Positions 1,898 through 64,000 of a stretch of DNA of 64,000 bases are shown here, one piece after another. The notes under the pieces are model-generated. The model ran no database searches, was not told the origin of the DNA, and saw nothing but the letters and a program-made list of their open reading frames with translations. Both the position numbers and the translations under genes were made by a program. Each line of letters begins with the position of its first letter. The first letter of the stretch is position 1. Source of the stretch: Ancylobacter polymorphus (lineage in GTDB: Bacteria > Pseudomonadota > Alphaproteobacteria > Rhizobiales > Xanthobacteraceae); the NCBI RefSeq assembly GCF_022836935.1, contig NZ_CP083239.1, positions 1,240,001-1,304,000 on the forward strand, in the 5' to 3' direction.

Positions 1898-3307
1898 GTG
1901 GACGTGCAGAAAAATAGCGCAATCGCGGCCGACGCAAAGGCGACGGTTCCGGGCGGCAGGGCAGGGAGCGGGGCGTGGGGTGACACCATCGCGGCGGTCT
2001 CTTCCGGCACCGGCGGCGCGGTGGCGGTCCTTCGCCTCTCCGGCCCGCAGGCCGGGGCGGCGCTTGCCGCGCTCGTCGGGCGGCTGCCGGAGCCGCGCCG
2101 CGCCCAGCTCGCCCGTCTGCGCAACCCGGCGACGGGCGAGGTGCTCGACCAGGGGCTCGTGCTGTGGTTCCCCGGCCCGCGCAGCGCGACCGGCGAGGAC
2201 ATGGCGGAGCTACAGATCCATGGCGGCCGCGCCGTGGTCGCCGCCGTGCTCGGCGCAGTGCTCACCGTCCCCGGCCTGCGGCCGGCGGAGGCGGGCGAGT
2301 TCACCCGTCGCGCCTTTCTCAATGGGCGCATGGACCTCACCGAAGCCGAAGGCCTCGCCGACCTGATCGCAGCGGAGACCCAGGCGCAGCGCCGGCTGGC
2401 CTTCGCCCATGCCTTCGGCCATCTCGGCCAGCAGGTCGAGGCCTGGCGCGGCCGGCTCATCCGCGCCATGGCGCTGGTGGAAGCGGGCATCGATTTCGCC
2501 GATGAAGACGACGTGCCGGCCGGGGCGCGGGCGCTGGCCAAGCCGGAAGTGGCGGCGCTCCTGGACCAGCTCACCCGCGCATTGGCGGACCGGCGCGGCG
2601 CCATGGTCCGCGAAGGGGCGCTCATCGCCATTGCCGGCCTGCCCAATGCCGGCAAGTCGTCGCTGCTCAACGCGCTCGCCCGGCGCGAGGTGGCCATCGT
2701 TTCCGACGAGCCGGGCACCACGCGGGACTTGCTGGAAGTCGCGCTCGACCTTGACGGCCACAAGGCCACGCTGGTCGACACCGCCGGCCTGCGCGAGGCG
2801 GAAAGCCGGGTGGAGGCGGAAGGCATTCGCCGCGCCCGCGCCCGCATGGCGCAGGCCGACCTCGTTCTCTGGGTGCATGATCTCACCGACGGCCCCGCGC
2901 CGGCGGAGGCCCCGGTGACGGCCGGCGCGCCCCTCTGGTTGCTGGGCAACAAGGTCGACCGGGCGGTCGGCTCCCCCGCGCTCGACGCTGCGTGGGCGCG
3001 CCATCGGCTGACGGTTTCCGCCGCGCGCGGCGAGGGGCTGGAAGAACTCATCGGCGCCCTCGGCCGCTTCATCGCCGAGCGGGCGGCGGGAGAGCACCCG
3101 GCCCTGCTGCGGGCGCGGCACCGCGCCAGCGCCGAAGAAGCCCGGGCCCAGATCGAGCACGCCCTCGCGCAGTGGGACCGGCTCGACGACGAACTCCTCG
3201 CCGAGGAACTGCGCCTCGCCGCCCGGGCGCTGGGCCGGATGACCGGCGCCATCGGGGTCGAGGATCTTCTCGATGTCGTGTTCCGCGAATTCTGCATCGG
3301 CAAATAG
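1898..3307 (+). CDS. mnmE: tRNA uridine-5-carboxymethylaminomethyl modification GTPase MnmE
   Basis: The product of 469 residues is the GTPase that works with MnmG to place the (carboxymethyl)aminomethyl group on the wobble uridine of certain tRNAs in the cytoplasm. The N-terminal formyl-THF-binding domain is followed by a G domain with P-loop GLPNAGKS (about residues 247-254), a DEPGTTRD switch and a DTAGL G3 motif. The C-terminus ends in the invariant CIGK, whose cysteine is conserved in the family. The start is GTG at 1898. mnmG, encoding the partner subunit, follows 220 bp downstream, and the gap carries two parS-like sites. Confidence 0.97.
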   Translation: MDVQKNSAIAADAKATVPGGRAGSGAWGDTIAAVSSGTGGAVAVLRLSGPQAGAALAALVGRLPEPRRAQLARLRNPATGEVLDQGLVLWFPGPRSATGEDMAELQIHGGRAVVAAVLGAVLTVPGLRPAEAGEFTRRAFLNGRMDLTEAEGLADLIAAETQAQRRLAFAHAFGHLGQQVEAWRGRLIRAMALVEAGIDFADEDDVPAGARALAKPEVAALLDQLTRALADRRGAMVREGALIAIAGLPNAGKSSLLNALARREVAIVSDEPGTTRDLLEVALDLDGHKATLVDTAGLREAESRVEAEGIRRARARMAQADLVLWVHDLTDGPAPAEAPVTAGAPLWLLGNKVDRAVGSPALDAAWARHRLTVSAARGEGLEELIGALGRFIAERAAGEHPALLRARHRASAEEARAQIEHALAQWDRLDDELLAEELRLAARALGRMTGAIGVEDLLDVVFREFCIGK

Positions 3308-55557: not shown

Positions 55558-55632
55558 GCGGGTGTAGCTCAGGGGTAGAGCACAACCTTGCCAAGGTTGG
55601 GGTCGTGGGTTCGAATCCCATCGCCCGCTCCA
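55558..55632 (+). tRNA. tRNA-Gly (anticodon GCC)
   Basis: The 75-nt gene has acceptor GCGGGTG pairing with CGCCCGC (one G-T pair), anticodon loop TTGCCAA, the T loop TTCGAAT and an encoded CCA. Island-type genes begin downstream, so its 3' end is a candidate attachment site. Confidence 0.96.
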
Positions 55633-55661
55633 AATTTTCCCAAGAAAATCAGATAGTTAGC

Positions 55662-55682
55662 AAACGCCCTTCGGGGCGTTTT
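55662..55682 (+). terminator. Rho-independent terminator after tRNA-Gly
   Basis: A perfect 8-bp stem AAACGCCC / GGGCGTTT with a TTCG tetraloop followed by TTT lies 30 bp after the tRNA. Confidence 0.85.
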
Positions 55683-55684
55683 CT

Positions 55685-55729
55685 GCTTACCGGCAACAGC
55701 TCTGCCATTTCGGTAAGCAGGCGGTAAGC
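55685..55729. repeat. CGGTAAGC inverted and direct repeats near the island edge
   Basis: GCTTACCG at 55685-55692 is the exact inverse of CGGTAAGC at 55711-55718, which is repeated directly at 55722-55729. The cluster next to a tRNA 3' end resembles recombinase or excisionase binding sites. Confidence 0.5.
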
Positions 55730-55860
55730 GCGGCAGGGAAAGCCGTGGCGCGCTCCAGCGGAGGCGCCCGCCCTGTCCGACCGGTCAGCGAAAGCGCGGA
55801 CAAGCGGTGCGGCTATTCGGCAGACCACCTCTCCCGCGTACGGGATGTCCTTTCGCCCAC

Positions 55861-55935
55861 TGAGAGTGAGAGGTAGGACCGGAATCCCGCGACGGGTTGA
55901 GGGCCGGAGGAGGGCTTCCGGCGCCCGTCATGGAG
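55861..55935 (+). promoter_or_regulatory. Structured leader repeat, copy 1 (orphan)
   Basis: A ~75 nt element has GAGAGTGAGAGG, then an outer stem GACGGG (55891-55896) / CCCGTC (55924-55929) enclosing an inner hairpin GCCGGA..TTCCGGC. It ends in ATGGAG. It matches copies 2 and 3 but leads into a transposase remnant, so its original gene has been lost. Confidence 0.8.
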
Positions 55936-55937
55936 TC

Positions 55938-56041
55938 AAGGCTGAGGTCATCCATCGCCGAGGTCCTTGGCGATCCTTCGAGGCCGTCGAGGTTGCCACG
56001 CTGACCTGGGTCGACTGGTTCAACCATCTCTGGCTGCTGCA
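55938..56041 (+). pseudogene. IS3-family transposase fragment
   Basis: The frame reads KAEVIHRRGPWRSFEAVE and then VATLTWVDWFN, a typical C-terminal part of an IS3-type OrfB transposase. The rest of the gene and the IS ends are missing. It lies directly behind the orphan leader. Confidence 0.75.
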
Positions 56042-56120
56042 GGAGAGTTCTTTCGGGATAATTTCAGATCACACCTCCCGGACTGTCGGGCAGACCCACC
56101 CCAAAGCCCTCAGGGCGGCA

Positions 56121-56196
56121 AAGTGTGAGAGGCAGGTCTGGATTTCCGTGACGGGTTGAGGGCCGGGAGAGAGGCTTCCGGCGCCCGTCATGGAGG
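56121..56196 (+). promoter_or_regulatory. Structured leader repeat, copy 2 (DUF932 gene)
   Basis: The element has outer stem GACGGG (56150-56155) / CCCGTC (56184-56189) and inner stem GCCGGGA / TTCCGGC. It ends directly at the ribosome-binding site GGAGG of the DUF932 gene, so folding could control access to that site. Confidence 0.85.
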
Positions 56197-56205
56197 TTGA
56201 TCCCC

Positions 56206-57399
56206 ATGAACATGCAGGTTCTGGATGCCGGTCGTGATGCCAGCAGCGGCTACAAGGTGGAGGTCACCCGCGGCGAGCGGGTCGGCCGCGTGTCTTCGGA
56301 GTGGTTCTCCCGGCCGGATGATGAGCGGTTCCTGTCGCTCGGCGAAATGGCCGCGATGGTGCGGGGGCGTGCTGATCACAGTCGGTCGCGCCTGGTGGAG
56401 ACGTCGCGTATCCATGTGGAGGCGAGCCGCTCCAATGCCGAGCGGTTGGCGCTGGTCATTCCCGGGGCGGATGCCCCCGTCGAGCCGAACCATTGGTCCT
56501 TCGGCCAGCTCGCGGCCCAGATCGGGGCCCCGGCCGCCTATCTGCGCCAGCTTCCAGCCGCGCTGGCCGGCATTAATCTGCAATATGGTCTGACCTCGCA
56601 CCGCGCCGAGCAGATCAAGACCTATGAGACCGCCAATGGCCGCGTCGAGCTGCGCGCGGTGACCGGCCCGGACTATGGCCGGATCTACGATCACGAGCTG
56701 GTCGAAGCGGTGCAGCGCATTGCCGGCAACGGCACCGGCGACACGCGCTGGAAGGTGCCGGGCGTGCTCGACTGGTCGACGGGCATCTACAATCCGCGTG
56801 TGGACATCACCAGGGATACGACGACGCTCTATGCCTCCGACCGCGACGTCTTCCTGTTCCTGGTTGACGACCTCAACCCGATCGAGGCCGGGCGTTTGCC
56901 CGACGGCTCGCCGGACCTCTATTTCCGGGGCTTCTACTGCTGGAACTCGGAGGTGGGGGCCAAGACGCTCGGCATCGCGAGTTTCTATCTGCGTGCCGTC
57001 TGCCAGAACCGCAATCTCTGGGGTGTCGAGGATTTCCAGGAGATCACCATCCGCCACTCCAAATACGCCGCCTCGCGCTTTGCGCACGAGGCAGCGCCGG
57101 CACTCACCCGCTTCGCCAATTCCTCGCCCATGCCCTTCGTCAACGGCATCAAGGCGGCACGGGAGAAGATCGTGGCGCGCACCGACGAGGACCGCAGCGA
57201 CTTCCTCCGCAACCGGGGCTTCTCCAAGGCCGAGACCGCCAGGATCATCGACACGGTGCTGGCCGAGGAGGGGCGCAAGCCCGAGAGCATCTTCGACTTC
57301 GTGCAGGGCATCACCGCGGTCGCACGCGCCAAGCCCCACCAGGATGCAAGGCTCGATCTTGAGGGCCGGGCAAAGAAGCTGCTCGATCGGGCAGCCTGA
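56206..57399 (+). CDS. DUF932-domain protein
   Basis: The 397-residue protein belongs to the DUF932 phage/plasmid-related family, with WSFGQLAAQIGAPAAYLRQLP, LRAVTGPDYGRIYDHELVEAV, SDRDVFLFLVDD and FRGFYCWNSEVGAKTLGI. Function unknown. It is common on plasmids and integrative elements. ATG 56206 lies 9 nt after GGAGG. It is preceded by leader copy 2, and the next gene has its own leader. Confidence 0.92.
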   Translation: MNMQVLDAGRDASSGYKVEVTRGERVGRVSSEWFSRPDDERFLSLGEMAAMVRGRADHSRSRLVETSRIHVEASRSNAERLALVIPGADAPVEPNHWSFGQLAAQIGAPAAYLRQLPAALAGINLQYGLTSHRAEQIKTYETANGRVELRAVTGPDYGRIYDHELVEAVQRIAGNGTGDTRWKVPGVLDWSTGIYNPRVDITRDTTTLYASDRDVFLFLVDDLNPIEAGRLPDGSPDLYFRGFYCWNSEVGAKTLGIASFYLRAVCQNRNLWGVEDFQEITIRHSKYAASRFAHEAAPALTRFANSSPMPFVNGIKAAREKIVARTDEDRSDFLRNRGFSKAETARIIDTVLAEEGRKPESIFDFVQGITAVARAKPHQDARLDLEGRAKKLLDRAA

Positions 57400-57474
57400 C
57401 TTCCGGAAAGCCGGAGATGTGGAGATCCGTGTCTCCGGCTTTCTGCTTGTGCGGTTCTGCGGCGCTGCCCTCCA

Positions 57475-57548
57475 GAGTGAGAGGGCGGCGCTGCGCTTCG
57501 TGACGGGTTGGAGGCCGAGAGAGAGGCTCTTGGCCGCCCGTCGCGGAG
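57475..57548 (+). promoter_or_regulatory. Structured leader repeat, copy 3 (ParB-like gene)
   Basis: The same GAGTGAGAGG start is followed by outer stem GACGGG (57502-57507) / CCCGTC (57537-57542). The inner stem GGCCGAGAG / CTCTTGGCC differs in sequence from copies 1 and 2 but keeps its pairing. It ends at GGAG, the ribosome-binding site of the ParB-like gene. Confidence 0.85.
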
Positions 57549-57557
57549 ATGCCTTCC

Positions 57558-59621
57558 ATGGCGACCAATGTTCAGAAGATCACGCTCTCGCCCTCGCGTG
57601 ACATCCCCTTCAACAAGCTGCTGCTCAGCCAGTCGAACGTCCGGCGCATCAAGGCTGGGGTCTCGATCGAGGAACTGGCTGAGGACATCGCCCGCCGTGG
57701 CCTGCTGCAGGGCCTGAGCGTGCGGCCTGTGGTTGACGACACCGGCGTCGAGACCGGCATGTTCGAGATCCCGGCCGGCGGACGGCGCTATCGGGCGCTG
57801 GAAGTGCTGGTGAAGCAGAAGCGCCTCGCCAAGACCGCGCCGGTGCCCTGTGTCATCCGGGAGGGCGGCATCGCCGAAGAGGATTCGCTCGCCGAGAATG
57901 TCCAGCGCGCGCCGCTGCATCCGCTCGACCAGTTCCGCGCATTTCTGGCGCTGCGCGAGAAGGGGCAGTCCGAGGAAGAGATCGCCGCCGCCTTCTTCGT
58001 CTCCGTCGGCGTGGTGAAGCAGCGTCTCAGGCTCGCCTCGATCTCTCCGGTGCTGTTGGAGGTCTATGCCGAGGACGACATGACGCTCGACCAGCTCATG
58101 GCCTTCACCGTTTCCGGCGACCATGCGCGCCAGGAACAGGTCTTCGAGCGGCTGAAGACCTCCTATGACAAGCAGCCCTATGCCATCCGCCGCATGCTGA
58201 CCGAGGGTGCTGTCCGCGCCTGTGACAAGCGCGCCCAATTCATCGGTCTCGAGGCCTATATCGAGGCCGGCGGCACCATCCTGCGCGACCTGTTCCAGGG
58301 CGATGATGGCGGATGGCTGCAGGATGTCGCGCTCGTCGACCGGCTTGTGGCTGAGAAGCTCAAGGCCGAGGCCGACGCTGTCGCTACCGAAGGATGGAAG
58401 TGGGTCGAGGTGGCCCCTGACTTCGCCTATGGCCACACCTACGGCCTGCGACAGCTGCGCGGCGAGACCATCCCGCTCACCACTGAGGAGGAAGCGAGCC
58501 GCGATGCCCTCCAGGCGGAATATGATCGCCTGTCCACGGAATACGCCGAGGCGGATGAACTGCCGGAGGAGGTCGACGCGCGGCTCGGCGAGATCGAGAC
58601 GGCGATCGAAGCCTTCGAGGCGCGTCCGATCGCCTTCGATCCGGCGGAGGCGGCGCGCGCCGGCGCCTTCGTCAGCATCGCCCATGATGGGTCGGTGCGC
58701 ATTGAGCGCGGCTATGTGCGGCCTGAGGACGAACTGCCGGCTGAGCCCGAACTCGCCGTGGAGGACGCGGGGCCGCGCCTTGCCGCCGCTGCGGCCACGA
58801 GGGCGGGCGATGCTGTTACAGCCGATACGCTGGCGCCCGAACTCGAGGAGGACGAAGGGCTGTCTGCGCTCTCGGACCGGCTCATGGCCGAACTGACCTC
58901 GCACCGCACGCTCGGCCTGCGTCAGGCGCTGGGCGAACGGCCGGACGTGGCCTTCCTCGCCGCCCTGCATGCCCTGACGCTGAAGAGCTTCTACCGTTAC
59001 GGCTCGGATAGCTGCCTCGAACTCGACCTGAAGAGCATCGCCTTCAGCGCGCAGGCGCCGGGGCTGAACGACAGCGCCTCGGCCGCGGCGATCCACGCCC
59101 GGCATGATGGCTGGGCCAAGGTCCTGCCGAAGGACTCGGCCGATCTCTGGGAGGCTCTGCGGGACTGGGACAGCGACAGCCGCTCCAGCCTGTTCGCCCA
59201 TGTGGTGAGCCTGTCGGTGAATGCTGTTCATGAGGCCTGGAACCGGCGCCCCCGCGCCCTCCACCATGCGGATCAACTCGCCCGCGCCGTCGACCTCGAC
59301 ATGGCGGCCGCCGGGTGGAGGCCGACCGTGGACAATTTCCTCGGCCGGGTCACCAAGGCCCGCATTCTGCTGGCGGTGTGCGAGGCCAAGGGGTCGCGCG
59401 TTGCGGACCGCATCGCGCACCTGAAGAAGGGCGACATGGCCCGCGAGGCCGAAACGTTGCTGGCTAATACCGGCTGGCTGCCGGAACCGCTGCGCGGAGC
59501 CGAACCCGCCGTTGGCGAGGATACGGCGGCGCAGGACGGCACAACGGCCATGGGCGAAGACGAGAGTCTTGAGGATACTGAAGACACCACGGACATCCCC
59601 CCTGCCGTGGCGGCGGAGTAA
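57558..59621 (+). CDS. Large ParB/RepB/Spo0J-like protein of mobile elements
   Basis: The 687-residue protein has a ParB N-terminal nuclease-like/CTPase domain (LLLSQSNVRRIKAGVSIEELAEDIARRGLLQGLSVRP, IPAGGRRYRALEVL, EDSLAENVQRAPLHPLDQ) and a KorB-like helix-turn-helix. A coiled-coil segment (about residues 300-350) and a long C-terminal domain unlike chromosomal ParB follow. No ParA partner is adjacent. It is typical of plasmids and ICEs in Rhizobiales, with unclear role. ATG 57558 is chosen for its spacing from GGAG. Confidence 0.92.
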   Translation: MATNVQKITLSPSRDIPFNKLLLSQSNVRRIKAGVSIEELAEDIARRGLLQGLSVRPVVDDTGVETGMFEIPAGGRRYRALEVLVKQKRLAKTAPVPCVIREGGIAEEDSLAENVQRAPLHPLDQFRAFLALREKGQSEEEIAAAFFVSVGVVKQRLRLASISPVLLEVYAEDDMTLDQLMAFTVSGDHARQEQVFERLKTSYDKQPYAIRRMLTEGAVRACDKRAQFIGLEAYIEAGGTILRDLFQGDDGGWLQDVALVDRLVAEKLKAEADAVATEGWKWVEVAPDFAYGHTYGLRQLRGETIPLTTEEEASRDALQAEYDRLSTEYAEADELPEEVDARLGEIETAIEAFEARPIAFDPAEAARAGAFVSIAHDGSVRIERGYVRPEDELPAEPELAVEDAGPRLAAAAATRAGDAVTADTLAPELEEDEGLSALSDRLMAELTSHRTLGLRQALGERPDVAFLAALHALTLKSFYRYGSDSCLELDLKSIAFSAQAPGLNDSASAAAIHARHDGWAKVLPKDSADLWEALRDWDSDSRSSLFAHVVSLSVNAVHEAWNRRPRALHHADQLARAVDLDMAAAGWRPTVDNFLGRVTKARILLAVCEAKGSRVADRIAHLKKGDMAREAETLLANTGWLPEPLRGAEPAVGEDTAAQDGTTAMGEDESLEDTEDTTDIPPAVAAE

Positions 59622-59644
59622 CCCTCACCACGATCCTGAACCTC

Positions 59645-59678
59645 GGCCCGCCGGCTCTGTCGGCGGGCCTTTGTTTTT
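59645..59678 (+). terminator. Rho-independent terminator after the ParB-like gene
   Basis: A perfect 9-bp stem GGCCCGCCG / CGGCGGGCC with a 7-nt loop is followed by TTTGTTTTT. It ends only 12 bp before the next ATG, so the Toprim gene either needs read-through or has a promoter within the terminator region. Confidence 0.88.
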
Positions 59679-59690
59679 GAAAAGCTCGCC

Positions 59691-60725
59691 ATGTCCGGGA
59701 TTGCTCAACATCTGTCGCGCCGGCTCGCCGATCGGGCCGAAGCCGTTTGCCGTCACTATCTCTCCAATGGGCGCCGGGAGGGCCGCTACTGGCTCGTCGG
59801 CGATGTCCGCAACACGCCCGGCCGCTCGCTCTTCGTCCGGCTCCACGCATCCGCGAAGGGCCCGGCGGGCAAATGGACCGATGCCGCCACCGGCGAACAT
59901 GGCGATCTTCTCGATGTCATCCGGGGATCGCTGGGGCTCCTCGACTTCGCTGACGTTGCCGAGGAAGCGCGGACCTTTCTCAACCTGCCGCATCCCGAAC
60001 CGGAGCCCGCAGCACCACGTCGCTGCGTCACGCCGGCTCCATCAGGTTCGATCGAAGCGGCACAGCGGCTGTTCGCTATGTCGCGGCCCATCGCCGGGAC
60101 CCTCGCACAGACGTATCTGCGCCGACGCGGCATTACGCTTCTGCACGGAACCGGAAACCTGCGCTTCCACCCGCGCTGCTACTACAGGCCTGACGACGGC
60201 CCGACCGAGACCTTGCCCGCCATGATCGCCGCCGTCACCGATCTCACGGGCAGGATCACTGGCGTACACCGCACCTGGCTCGCCCCCGACGGTTCGGACA
60301 AGGCCCCAGTCGACACGCCGCGCAAGGCGATGGGCGATCTGCTCGGGTCTACCGTTCGCATCGGTGTGCCCGACACCGTGATGGCAGCGGGCGAAGGCAT
60401 CGAGACCTTGCTGTCGCTCCGGCAGGTTCTGCCGAGCATGGCGATGGCGCCGGCGCTCTCGGCAGCACATCTGGCCGCCATCCTGTTCCCGCCTGCCCTG
60501 AGGCGGCTCTACATCGTCAGCGACAACGATCCTGCCGGTGACGCCGCGCGGGACACGCTGATCGAACGGGCGAACGCTGAGGGGATCGAGGCCATTCCAT
60601 TGTCGCCAGCGCTCGGAGACTTCAACGAGGATCTCCAGCGGCTCGGTATCGATGCGCTCCGGATGGGTGTTCGGGTGCAACTCGTCCCGGAAGATGTCGT
60701 GCGCTTCATGAGCCTGGCCCCATAG
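59691..60725 (+). CDS. Toprim-domain protein (primase-like, mobile-element type)
   Basis: The 344-residue protein has an N-terminal DUF7146-like region (HYLSNGRREGRYWLVGDVRNTPGRSLFVRL). A C-terminal Toprim domain follows, with the catalytic glutamate in AAGEGIETLLSL and acidic pair in VSDNDPAGD. It may act as a primase or in element replication or transfer. It lacks the helicase domain of full phage primases. Confidence 0.9.
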   Translation: MSGIAQHLSRRLADRAEAVCRHYLSNGRREGRYWLVGDVRNTPGRSLFVRLHASAKGPAGKWTDAATGEHGDLLDVIRGSLGLLDFADVAEEARTFLNLPHPEPEPAAPRRCVTPAPSGSIEAAQRLFAMSRPIAGTLAQTYLRRRGITLLHGTGNLRFHPRCYYRPDDGPTETLPAMIAAVTDLTGRITGVHRTWLAPDGSDKAPVDTPRKAMGDLLGSTVRIGVPDTVMAAGEGIETLLSLRQVLPSMAMAPALSAAHLAAILFPPALRRLYIVSDNDPAGDAARDTLIERANAEGIEAIPLSPALGDFNEDLQRLGIDALRMGVRVQLVPEDVVRFMSLAP

Positions 60726-61095
60726 CCGAAACGGGCTGAACCGCGATGCGTGGCCGCCATGCCTGCAAGGATGCGTCAGTAACGGCAAGAGGACCGCGCC
60801 TTGCGCCTTCGAGAGGGCGATCGGCCGTCAGCCGGGCCGGATAAGCAATGGCTGCCGCCGACGATTTTCCGGCGCGGCCTTCGGGCCGCTTTCCATCGCG
60901 AAGCAAAATCGCCGGCTTGTCGCCATCCTCCGCTGGCGCTGCGGCCCTGTGCGCTTTTCCGGCATGGTCTTGTCCCGAAACCGGTTCCCACTTTCGGGGA
61001 CCATGCCCGTGCTCCGGGTGCAGGTCCGTCCCGACCGACGGCTTCGTCGCCATGAAGGCCGCCACGGCAGGCGGTCCAAACCGACGGAGCATCCC
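60726..61095. other. Gene-free stretch with a nested palindrome
   Basis: This 370 bp interval has no convincing gene. It contains the nested palindrome at 60961-61007 and GC-rich sequence leading to the DUF2493 gene's ribosome site. Confidence 0.5.
60961..61007. repeat. Nested palindromic repeat (Rhizobiales intergenic type)
   Basis: Outer arms GGCATGGTC / GACCATGCC enclose inner arms CCCGAAA / TTTCGGG around CCGGTTCCCAC. The design matches a repeat class common between genes in Rhizobiales. Confidence 0.75.
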
Positions 61096-62022
61096 ATGAG
61101 CGCGCATGACGACCACGAGCCGCACCACGTCTCATCGCCGACCGACCACCTGATCCAGGAATTGCAGCTCCACGGCCATCGTCCCTCCGAGGACGAGCGC
61201 GACCAGCGCCCGCCACCGGAGGACCGCCACATCGAAGGCGCCGTTGCCGACATCTTCGATGCCCTGGTCGCAACGATCACCGACACCAGCCTCGATGCCG
61301 AGCTTCCCGATCTCCTCTGGTCGACCGTCAACATGTTCCACCGCGCCGTGGACCGGATCGAACAGAAGCTCGACGACAATGAGCAGGCCCAGAAGCAGCT
61401 TCAGCGCGAACAGGACGGCTCGGAGGTGAAGTCACTGGAGCTCGAGCGCCTGATCGACATCGGCATGAACCTGATCGGCCGGCGCGACGGCATGGAAACC
61501 TTCCGCGAGGCCGCCGCCGACCGCTACCGTATCGCCACCGGCTCGCCCTGGACGCCACGGGCCGGATCACGGGTCAACCATCGGCACCTCACCGCATCGC
61601 TGATCGACAGCCGGGATTTTCTCGCCGCCAGGAGGCGCGCGGATAGCGAGGTGCTCGTGCCCGTCGGGCCGAAGATCGCCTTCTCGGGCGGCGACACTGC
61701 CGATCACAGGCAGATCTGGGCCAAGCTCGATCAGATCCACGCCAAGCACCCGGACATGGTGCTGCTGCATGGCGGCTCGCCTAAAGGCGCCGAAAAGATC
61801 GCATCCCTCTGGGCCGACAGCCGCAAGGTGCCGCAGGTGGCCTTCAAGCCCGACTGGACGAAGCACGCCAAGGCGGCGCCCTTCAAGCGCAACGACCAGA
61901 TGCTGAACGTGGTGCCGATCGGGGTCGTGATCTTTCCCGGCACCGGCATTCAGGACAATCTGGCCGACAAGGCCCGTAAGATGGGCATCCCGGTCTATCG
62001 CTTCGGAACTGGTGGCGCATAA
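61096..62022 (+). CDS. DUF2493-domain protein (SLOG-like)
   Basis: The 308-residue protein has a charged N-terminal half with coiled-coil-like sequence (DRIEQKLDDNEQAQKQLQRE) and a C-terminal DUF2493 Rossmann-like domain. The latter shows IAFSGGDTADHRQIW, MVLLHGGSPKGAEKIA and NVVPIGVVIFPGTGIQDNLADKA. DUF2493 belongs to the SLOG superfamily of nucleotide-ligand binders. It is common on Rhizobiales plasmids and islands, with unknown function. ATG 61096 follows GGAG. Confidence 0.9.
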   Translation: MSAHDDHEPHHVSSPTDHLIQELQLHGHRPSEDERDQRPPPEDRHIEGAVADIFDALVATITDTSLDAELPDLLWSTVNMFHRAVDRIEQKLDDNEQAQKQLQREQDGSEVKSLELERLIDIGMNLIGRRDGMETFREAAADRYRIATGSPWTPRAGSRVNHRHLTASLIDSRDFLAARRRADSEVLVPVGPKIAFSGGDTADHRQIWAKLDQIHAKHPDMVLLHGGSPKGAEKIASLWADSRKVPQVAFKPDWTKHAKAAPFKRNDQMLNVVPIGVVIFPGTGIQDNLADKARKMGIPVYRFGTGGA

Positions 62023-62035
62023 GCGCCGCCAAGCC

Positions 62036-62062
62036 CGCCATCTTGAACGTGATGGCGTTTTC
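62036..62062 (+). terminator. Rho-independent terminator after the DUF2493 gene
   Basis: A 7-bp perfect stem CGCCATC / GATGGCG with an 8-nt loop is followed by TTTTCT. Confidence 0.8.
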
Positions 62063-62106
62063 TCTATTTTGCTATCAACGCTATCGGCCTTACTGGAGGC
62101 GCCATC

Positions 62107-62361
62107 ATGCCCGCAGTGACGATCCGCAACCTCTCCGAGGCGACGCACCGTGCCCTCAAGGTGCGCGCGGCACAGCACGGCCGCAGCACCGAAGCCGAGA
62201 TGCGCGACATCCTAGAGACCGCCGTTCGCCCTGACACGCGTCTTCGGCTCGGCACGGCGCTCGCGGAGCGCAGCCGCCGTCTCGGCCTAACCAATGAGGA
62301 CATCGACGCCCTCAGCCCGGCGCGCGACAGGACGCCCGACGAGCCGATGAGCTTCGAGTGA
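62107..62361 (+). CDS. vapB: VapB/FitA-type antitoxin (ribbon-helix-helix)
   Basis: The 84-residue protein begins MPAVTIRNLSEATHRALKVRAAQHGRSTEAEMRDIL, the typical FitA/VapB ribbon-helix-helix DNA-binding domain. A C-terminal toxin-binding tail follows. It should repress its own operon together with the toxin. The upstream TGCTATC/CTATCGG sequence at 62070-62085 is a possible operator. GTGA overlap links it to the toxin gene. Confidence 0.93.
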   Translation: MPAVTIRNLSEATHRALKVRAAQHGRSTEAEMRDILETAVRPDTRLRLGTALAERSRRLGLTNEDIDALSPARDRTPDEPMSFE

Positions 62362-62780
62362 TCCTTCTCGACACCAATGTCATCTCGGAGGCGATGAAGC
62401 CCACGCCCGACGACACCGTGCGGGCGTGGCTCGACGAGCAGGCGGCCGAGACGCTCTATCTCTCCAGCGTCACCATTGCCGAGCTGTTGTATGGCATCGG
62501 TGCGCTGCCTGCGGGCAAGCGCCAAGACCGGCTCACCGAAGCCCTGGATGGGCTGATGGAGCTGTTCGCTGACCGTGTCCTGCCGTTCGATATCGCTGCC
62601 GCACGACGCTATGCCGACCTCGCCGTGAAGGCGCGTGCGGCCGGGAAGGGCTTTCCGACGCCCGACGGCTATATCGCCGCAATCGCAGCCTCCCGGGGCT
62701 TCACTGTGGCCACGCGCGATACCAGCGCATTCGACGCCGCCGGTGTGGCGGTCATCAATCCGTGGAACGTGGAACGGTGA
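62358..62780 (+). CDS. vapC: VapC/FitB-type PIN-domain toxin
   Basis: The 140-residue ribonuclease toxin has all PIN acidic residues: Asp5 (MILLDTN), Glu42 (IAELLYG), Asp103 (TPDGYIAA) and Asp121 (ATRDTSAF). VapC toxins cut tRNA or rRNA. The start is GTG 62358, overlapping the antitoxin stop. The active site looks intact, so the pair probably works in element maintenance. Confidence 0.94.
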   Translation: MILLDTNVISEAMKPTPDDTVRAWLDEQAAETLYLSSVTIAELLYGIGALPAGKRQDRLTEALDGLMELFADRVLPFDIAAARRYADLAVKARAAGKGFPTPDGYIAAIAASRGFTVATRDTSAFDAAGVAVINPWNVER

Positions 62781-63062
62781 CGACCTGCCACAGTCAGCAC
62801 GTGTTGAACCTGACAACGCTTCGGAAGCGACCTGCGCAGTAACCCGCCATCACGGTCTCCTGACCGGACGACCATCCCCGCTTCACGACGCTGATCCTTG
62901 GGTCCAGCCGATGGCCTGACGCCATCAACCCATGAAGGGTCGGACTACGCTGCGCGTGCCGCCGCTCCGGCTGCGCCGGACACGGTGATTGCGGCCACCG
63001 GCCGGCCCTTTCGGGCGCCTGTCAGCGGGGGATGGACCTCCGCTCGCGCAGGAGCCAGGTCG

Positions 63063-63230
63063 ATGTCCGCCCAGATCGCTCACGCCTTCGCCTTCAGCCT
63101 CGCCACCACCCTGATGGCCACCGTCGTCATCTTCCGCGCCGGCGACGGCACGCTCTCCGTCGCCCCGGCTGCAGAATATGATGGCGACGAAGCCGCCATC
63201 GTCCGCGAAATCGACCCCTTCGCCTCTTGA
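63063..63230 (+). CDS. Small single-pass membrane protein
   Basis: The 55-residue protein has one hydrophobic segment (AFAFSLATTLMATVVIF, residues 9-25) and an acidic C-terminal tail (EYDGDEAAIVREIDPF). Purine-rich AGGAG..AGG lies upstream of ATG 63063. Function unknown. Confidence 0.6.
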   Translation: MSAQIAHAFAFSLATTLMATVVIFRAGDGTLSVAPAAEYDGDEAAIVREIDPFAS

Positions 63231-63353
63231 GAGGCGAACAGGCGGCCATGAACGGCGGAGACGGCGTGCGCTCTTGCTCTGACGCCGACGCCAATCTCGC
63301 CGGTGCATCGTGGTGGTGGAGGCGCTTCGATCTGATTTTATGGAGCCGCCCCC

Positions 63354-63791
63354 ATGATCTTCATCGGCATTCTCCTCAGCATGGCGACAATCGCATTCTT
63401 CTGCTGGCTGCTCTTCACGCTGGCGGTATTCGCGTTGCCGCTGTTTGCGGGCATCACGGCGGGCACATGGGCCTATGGCACCGGCGCCGGATGGCTCGGC
63501 GTTGTTGTCGGCCTTGTGGCCGCTGGCCTGACTTACGCCCTCGGCCAGTTCCTATTCGCGATCGTCCGCCCGATCTGGGCGCGTCTGCTCATCGTTGCCG
63601 TGTTCGTCGTCCCGGCTGCGGCGGCAGGCTTCCACGCCACCCATGGCATCGTGAAGCACACCATGCCCTCGCAGACGTGGCAGATGGTGTTTTCGATCAT
63701 CGGAGCCGGCGTGGTTGGCATTGTCGCCTTCGTGCGGATCACCGGAAGGAAGGCGTTCCGCCCTTCTGACGGGCACAGCTCCCCTCCCTGA
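63354..63791 (+). CDS. Multi-pass membrane protein of unknown function
   Basis: The 145-residue protein has about four hydrophobic helices (IFIGILLSMATIAFFCWLL, FAGITAGTWAYGTGAGWLGV, LLIVAVFVVPAAAAG, MVFSIIGAGVVGIVAFV). GGAG lies before ATG 63354. It is typical of small island-encoded membrane proteins. I do not recognise the family. Confidence 0.8.
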   Translation: MIFIGILLSMATIAFFCWLLFTLAVFALPLFAGITAGTWAYGTGAGWLGVVVGLVAAGLTYALGQFLFAIVRPIWARLLIVAVFVVPAAAAGFHATHGIVKHTMPSQTWQMVFSIIGAGVVGIVAFVRITGRKAFRPSDGHSSPP

Positions 63792-64000
63792 CGCCGCGAT
63801 AGCCGTTCGGCGCACCAGACAGCGAACGGCATATCGTCCGCGTCAACCGGCTGGGCCGGGAGGGAGCGGAGATCCGGCGCGCCGGCTTCGCCCTCTAATG
63901 CGGCAAGATTGGTGAGCGTGGAGGACGGCGGCCGCGTCGCAGCCGAAAGCCCCCTTGGGGCAGAGCATTCGCGACGTTGGCGGGACGAGGAATGCGCAGC
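63792..64000. other. Right end of the window, no supported gene
   Basis: A plus-strand frame opens with GTG at about 63914 and runs off the window edge, but nothing in its ~28 codons is recognisable. I cannot support a gene here. Confidence 0.3.

Follow-up and report, generated by a model that had tools for sequence, protein, structure and literature searches.

A hairpin leader with AGAG motifs in front of probable establishment genes of alphaproteobacterial conjugative elements

Leader copies at a tRNA-Gly island

The window analysed here is a stretch of 64 kb from the 5.2-Mb genome of Ancylobacter polymorphus, in which a tRNA-Gly gene (55558-55632) is followed by three copies of a hairpin leader, all on the plus strand. 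An earlier note on this DNA had reported three copies, and all of them were found at their places with the covariance model R1, which was built from 15 copies: the orphan copy c1 at 55861..55935 (82.5 bits, E 7e-19), c2 at 56121..56196 in front of a DUF932-like gene (88.1 bits, E 2.3e-20), and c3 at 57474..57548 in front of a ParB-like gene (80.2 bits, E 2.9e-18). In each copy, a purine box and a spacer of about 20 nt precede a hairpin, which has the outer stem GACGGG/CCCGTC, an inner stem of variable sequence, and a short loop of purines. Both stems, including the covariation of the inner one, agree with the first description. The box reads AGAGTGAGAG in c1 (55863..55872) and c3 (57474..57483), and AGTGTGAGAG, one base off the consensus, in c2 (56122..56131). 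The common start that had been claimed for the copies holds for the core pattern GTGACGGGTTGAGGGCCG, which occurs three times in the window at up to three mismatches versus 0.15 expected (three were reached in 0 of 100 shuffles), but not for the short start GAGTGAGAGG alone, for which seven matches at one mismatch versus 3.5 expected are not significant (7 of 100 shuffles equal this).

The predicted hairpins of c2 and c3 extend over 56141..56198 and 57493..57552, respectively. Contrary to the original description, the Shine-Dalgarno sequence GGAG of these two copies does not directly follow the hairpin; it lies inside the 3' arm in both cases (56192-56195 and 57545-57548). The predicted folds are very stable, with -40.9 kcal/mol for the region 56115-56200 of c2 and -56.5 kcal/mol for the region 57465-57560 of c3, which makes a simple RNA thermometer unlikely. 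Compared with shuffled sequences, c2 (z -3.9) and c3 (z -4.6) stand out, whereas c1 reaches a z of only -0.8, so that the three window copies alone are weak and the relatives decide.

The gene behind c2 encodes a DUF932-like protein of 397 amino acids with the probable start ATG 56206 (56206..57399, plus strand). Its match to Pfam DUF932 (E 0.0036) is under the family cut-off, and a relative (L013:12083-13282) is annotated as DUF932. The ParB-like protein behind c3 is encoded at 57558..59621 on the plus strand. Its start was assigned from the spacing and by comparison with relatives, which share the beginning MATxVQKITLS, and is ATG 57558 and not 57549; with the frame taken from 57549, Pfam ParB_N is matched with E 3.4e-06. 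Behind c1 there is no gene, just a frame of 24 codons. The proposal that the leader controls several genes of the island thus narrows to two genes that follow model-found copies. The orphan c1, which lies between the tRNA-Gly gene and c2, is possibly a relic of a lost establishment gene. A fourth copy is present on another contig of the same genome (G000:C2:77893-77988), in 5' position to a second ParB gene.

An integrase gene and type IV secretion genes (TrbE-, TrbL-, and TrbI-like) are encoded further along the contig of the window, and because of these genes the island is likely an integrative conjugative element. A search for its far border as a direct repeat of the tRNA end gave no shared word of at least 11 bases within 60 kb. 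The island also encodes a pair of a FitA-like antitoxin and a PIN-domain toxin (62107-62780). A 12-bp perfect inverted repeat at 57406-57443 (GAAAGCCGGAGA / TCTCCGGCTTTC), located between the DUF932 stop codon and the ParB leader, resembles a terminator without a clear T run. On the minus strand, a match to the Brucella sRNA BASRCI27 at 60945-61018 remains below threshold (28.6 bits, E 0.004, cut-off 59.8) and overlaps the start of a YspA-like gene. The P10 sRNA model from Pseudomonas has sub-threshold matches in two DUF932 coding regions (56832-56906 and L107:4530-4604), perhaps owing to a resemblance of coding sequence.

Conserved anatomy and covariation of class I leaders

The leaders that are found with R1 (class I) have a constant order of elements: the purine box AGAGNNAGAG, the hairpin with the Shine-Dalgarno sequence GGAG in its 3' arm, and the start codon ATG. 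The box is conserved in an anchored profile of 176 copies. Box and GGAG are recognizable in 127 of 145 representatives, and one or the other could not be recognized in 18. Conservation starts at the box, which in the 127 copies lies 64-74 nt ahead of GGAG, and in 123 of them an ATG follows 7, 8, or 9 nt behind GGAG when a start codon is sought 3-13 nt behind it and the longest frame is taken. Three weak matches (L040:1971-2063, L041:1945-2037, and L123:643-733) have an outer stem before a start codon without the AGAG loop and are perhaps degenerate or differently regulated leaders.

A covariance model and a search of further alphaproteobacterial DNA had been suggested as a check, and the homologs found in this way covary strongly. 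In an alignment of 150 hits (141 distinct), which was fitted to the structure and is biased towards it, 96.4% of 2674 stem cells pair and 16 of the 19 pairs show double changes, compared to 7.7 in shuffles; when the partner is slid by one to three columns, pairing falls to 37-54%. Covariation holds after removal of redundancy. Thinning to below 80% identity leaves 69 sequences with double changes at 15 pairs (shuffle maximum 10), thinning to below 70% leaves 19 sequences with 11 such pairs (shuffle mean 4.5, maximum 9), and thinning to below 65% leaves six sequences with seven (shuffle maximum 6). The leader of a distant ParB gene (L236, 38% identity) has the outer stem GACGGC/GCCGTC. The three hairpin copies are therefore confirmed as real and as part of a widespread cis-acting RNA.

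According to fold predictions for the 127 copies, computed at 30 °C for GGAG, the latter is paired with a mean probability of 0.83 (above 0.5 in 116 of 127), while the loop is mostly open (0.28) and the box is about half open (0.47 paired). A fixed 5' hairpin around the box was considered and rejected: the helix score of 12.6 beat all 200 shuffles (mean 11.5, sd 0.24), but no pair of positions is consistently paired, and a loose pairing around the box is possible. No alternative intramolecular fold was seen for class I. Lacking both such a fold and a fixed 5' hairpin, a switch in class I would need an outside factor.

RNA or DNA as the acting molecule

Repeated palindromic sequences in the vicinity of ParB genes could also be double-stranded DNA sites, such as an operator or a centromere-like repeat, with the hairpin as a by-product. 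Neither compensatory changes nor G.U pairs would be expected for such a site, nor would the strict coupling to start codons, and we regard this explanation as extremely improbable. A further DNA-based explanation is a single-stranded DNA promoter or priming site on the entering strand, and hairpins in front of leading-region-type genes are indeed known from Frpo (PMC11541004). The two strands of the leader, however, are not equivalent. Among 4708 stem cells, 3708 are Watson-Crick pairs, 813 are G.T, and 87 are A.C, with 56 of the A.C cells derived from one inner pair with shifting register. The sense strand of the hairpin is more stable than its complement in 126 of 127 copies, and the order does not change when DNA parameters are used (126 of 127). 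The difference amounts to -9.7 kcal/mol and is exceeded by the copies' own shuffles in few cases (122 of 127 exceed theirs); base composition alone explains a part of it, as shuffles give -4.2 kcal/mol. The predominance of G.T over A.C and the better folding of the sense strand point to a leader acting as RNA and not as a single-stranded DNA promoter. The complement also beats its own shuffles (mean z -3.2 versus -5.2 for the sense strand), so that this asymmetry weakens the promoter idea without refuting it. A promoter would further require that the mRNA begins at or behind the Shine-Dalgarno sequence, and upstream promoter-like conservation is absent: in 176 copies, the 65 nt that precede the box contain no conserved promoter. 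Altogether, a single-stranded DNA element appears very improbable.

The early proposal of a cis-acting RNA that operates at the level of translation gains support from the G.U pairs and from the Shine-Dalgarno sequence inside the stem, and none of the three outcomes that had been named as speaking against it was observed. Translational cis-regulatory leaders are characterized by a covarying, conserved structure at the 5' end that includes the ribosome-binding site, and such a structure was found here. As far as can be judged from sequence, the element is consistent with an mRNA leader that affects translation.

Genes behind the leaders

The association with gene starts, which had been named as a second check, is pronounced, as copies precede a small set of mobile-element gene families. 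Altogether 283 distinct leader sequences, 241 from R1 and 42 from the class II model R2 (see below), were assigned to genes, a few of them being counted twice because each model also picks up some leaders of the other class (six helicase leaders by R1 and one ParB leader by R2). Five families account for 261 of them: ParB-like proteins (108), ArdC (55), DUF932 proteins (39), strawberry-notch helicases (39), and a protein of 185 amino acids (20) for which no family match was obtained. Among the other 22, several precede members of these families that are truncated or broken in frame, two are weak matches in front of a 162-aa protein, and three lead a 140-145-aa protein. The coupling is close for the ParB-like genes. 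Among 57 homologous places inspected by eye, an R1 match is present at the start codon in 27 of 29 homologs with at least 50% identity versus 1 of 28 below 50%; the two misses in the first group are partial matches, one from residue 140 (G361) and one with a stop (G034).

The ArdC protein of locus L010 has an ArdcN and a zincin metallopeptidase domain. ArdC has been described as an antirestriction protein that binds transferred DNA (PMC5512222). Distant homologs of the ParB-like protein are encoded on enterobacterial plasmids, which among the matches listed are mostly predicted to be conjugative. On an E. coli IncF plasmid, one ParB homolog is located between ssb and psiB, a site that we take to be a leading-region position. 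Since ArdC confers antirestriction and ParB homologs occur on conjugative plasmids, one of them between ssb and psiB, the leader-bearing genes are probably establishment genes of alphaproteobacterial conjugative elements.

In eight leaders checked, the box follows a co-directional stop codon by 31, 32, 40, 40, 65, 74, 81, and 112 nt. The shortest gaps, seen in annotated plasmids, leave little room for a separate promoter, suggesting that these leaders act within longer transcripts. For ArdC in L010 and L012, in contrast, the leader follows a gene on the opposite strand and needs a promoter of its own. Box and hairpin could also act on RNA polymerase as an antitermination site of the nut or put kind, in favour of which are the linear box followed by a hairpin with a conserved loop and the recurrence of leaders inside gene clusters. 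Such a transcription element would require neither the tight distances to GGAG and ATG nor a Shine-Dalgarno sequence in the stem, and we consider it quite improbable.

Occurrence across genomes and plasmids

In a sample of 385 genomes of the class that includes G000, the genome of the window, R1 has matches in 29 (E up to 0.01). Two of these are weak and without the hallmarks (G135, 25.3 bits; G157, 24.4 bits) and look like chance, leaving 27 genomes. A phylum-wide sample gave matches in 34 of 398 genomes, all 34 in the window's own class. Among plasmids, 194 of 72,556 records match c2 in blastn searches; 95 of the 194 are predicted to be conjugative, 70 come from the single genus Pseudosulfitobacter, and the best 60 of the 194 are alphaproteobacterial where the name is informative. 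Scanning species genomes with a pattern returned at least 120 stretches; R1 matches 119 of the 120 listed, the miss being a stretch from Nocardioides (L157). Two stretches that match R1 have titles that name other groups, a gammaproteobacterial MAG (L110) and Verrucomicrobia bacterium LP2A (L154). In the latter, the leader at 2984-3076 precedes a truncated ArdC gene; it may have been transferred beyond the class, or the genome may be mislabelled. Both stretches are candidates for misbinning. No copies were obtained from viral contigs with one pattern or from phage records with blastn of c2.

A second structural class before helicase genes

The leader of strawberry-notch helicase genes, for example at L010:18616-18723, has a different and longer hairpin. 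It shares the AGAGNNAGAG box and has the loop GAGAGAGAGCG, and CGCTCTCC is located directly before GAGG. It thus represents a second structural class (class II) with the same AGAG signature, in which box and loop are kept. Most of the 42 matches of the corresponding model R2 precede strawberry-notch helicase genes. R2 has matches in 16 of 385 genomes, 15 of which also contain class I leaders, the sixteenth match being weak (25.5 bits); in G000, there is no R2 match.

Covariation in class II is modest in a plain alignment of 31 sequences, with double changes at 6 of 20 pairs compared to 3.4 in shuffles (23 of 500 shuffles reach this number). In the 42 model-fitted hits, pairing holds in 89.7% of the cells, and double changes are seen at 17 of 20 pairs versus 6.1 in shuffles, some of these changes being owed to divergent members. 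A CUCUC stretch adjoins the ribosome-binding site and is predicted to pair with the box at a mean probability of 0.50; pairing with the loop is possible in principle (0.07). Covariation cannot decide between these partners because box and loop are both almost invariant. The Shine-Dalgarno sequence of class II is predicted to pair only in part (0.53; more than 0.5 in 19 of 37), so that sequestration is not uniform. The occurrence of one signature in two folds argues that the AGAG motifs are what is recognized.

Proposed mechanism

Most likely, and with fair confidence on our side, the leader would silence the translation of establishment and anti-defence genes until a factor reads the AGAG boxes. 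Each copy would stand at the 5' end of an mRNA as its leader or, where the mRNA is longer, lead a single cistron within it. With the Shine-Dalgarno sequence held in the 3' arm of the hairpin, ribosomes would by default not start. The two AGAG signatures, upstream box and loop, would be recognition sites for a putative trans-acting factor, either protein or RNA, which, by setting the fold, would control the translation of all leader-bearing genes jointly. The leader would probably serve to keep costly genes off in a host where the element is established and to release them upon entry into a new cell. In this model, the RNA fold, its covariation, the Shine-Dalgarno sequence in the stem, and the association with genes are supported by sequence analysis, while we infer repression by default, the trans-acting factor, and the timing at transfer. 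No convincing candidate for the factor, for which an element-encoded protein had tentatively been suggested, was found among conserved neighbours, none of which appeared RNA-binding-like by eye. The 185-aa protein was considered for this role and set aside, as it has no family match and nothing suggestive was seen in its sequence by eye.

Hairpins of insertion sequences are known to block translation of read-through mRNA, and the leader might likewise be an insulator that works without any trans-acting factor: mRNAs from upstream would be blocked, and transcripts starting inside or behind the hairpin would escape. The very stable folds and the short distance of several leaders to preceding genes agree with an insulator, as does the pLS20 element EGeRS1-B, which is described to block expression from an upstream promoter (PMC8708921). 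A near-invariant AGAG box and loop in two fold classes would be left unexplained, however, and by eye nothing promoter-like is apparent between the hairpin and the start codon. Altogether, we judge an insulator to be unlikely.

More specifically, the factor-dependent leader could constitute an RNA-level establishment switch, in which an anti-defence regulon stands behind two AGAG-sharing folds and a dedicated factor frees translation within the first minutes after entry. We put this forward only tentatively. For the activation of anti-defence genes on incoming conjugative DNA, few systems appear to be known, namely single-stranded DNA promoters and a transient repressor (PMC8708921), and an RNA-level switch, if true, would be a third way beside them. 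The leader that is common to ArdC, ParB-like, DUF932, helicase, and other genes provides a sequence handle on the alphaproteobacterial establishment regulon and points to new candidate establishment genes, such as the 185-aa family.

Relation to known RNA families and establishment systems

The assumption that no named RNA family fits was borne out by searches of Rfam. Rfam 15 at gathering score finds four tRNAs only in the 64-kb window, and no match overlaps the copies in 55640-64000 at E up to 5. Four class I loci gave no match at a leader (E up to 3), and seven class II loci gave none anywhere (E up to 1). The leader therefore adds a well-supported family that is absent from the Rfam copy searched. 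Among the open-licence papers listed in literature searches, none describes the leader by title or start of abstract, which is weak evidence of absence.

The radC RNA has antirestriction genes among its genes and is, like the present leader, a proteobacterial cis-regulatory candidate. Unlike the leader, it is represented by a model of 149 positions with several hairpins. It was presented as a candidate (RF01754) in the 104-RNA paper of 2010 (PMC2864571). In G000, 12 matches to it were found at E up to 10, none of them at the copies and all below the cut-off, so that it was rejected as an identity of the leader. The best of these matches (L171:1501-1632, corresponding to G000:C1:1635901-1636032) scores 38.6 bits against a cut-off of 40.

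Leaders that sequester the Shine-Dalgarno sequence in general likewise have their ribosome-binding site in a hairpin, on its 3' side. The present leader differs from them by its common AGAG signature and by its regulon of mobile-element genes.

The closest parallel in terms of role is EGeRS1 of the pLS20 family of Bacillus plasmids, a repeated upstream sequence that is described to mark an establishment regulon and to block read-through expression (PMC8708921). Both elements are structured, and in both the same upstream sequence precedes several establishment genes including ardC, which in the present case are the ArdC genes and four further families. This resemblance is one of role and not of membership. 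According to its description, EGeRS1 comprises about 400-750 bp, is multi-branched, and belongs to Bacillus, which sets it apart from an alphaproteobacterial leader of about 90 nt with two fold classes and AGAG boxes, whose conservation does not reach upstream of the box.

Frpo and ssi likewise fold and lie upstream of leading-region genes, anti-defence islands among them (PMC11541004). As described there, Frpo is a DNA mimic of a double-stranded promoter, whereas the covariation of the leader favours the mRNA strand, its hairpin contains the Shine-Dalgarno sequence, and promoter-like hexamers were not seen in its consensus by eye. In kind, the element is a translational leader RNA; its new part is the AGAG signature across two folds together with the conjugative regulon.
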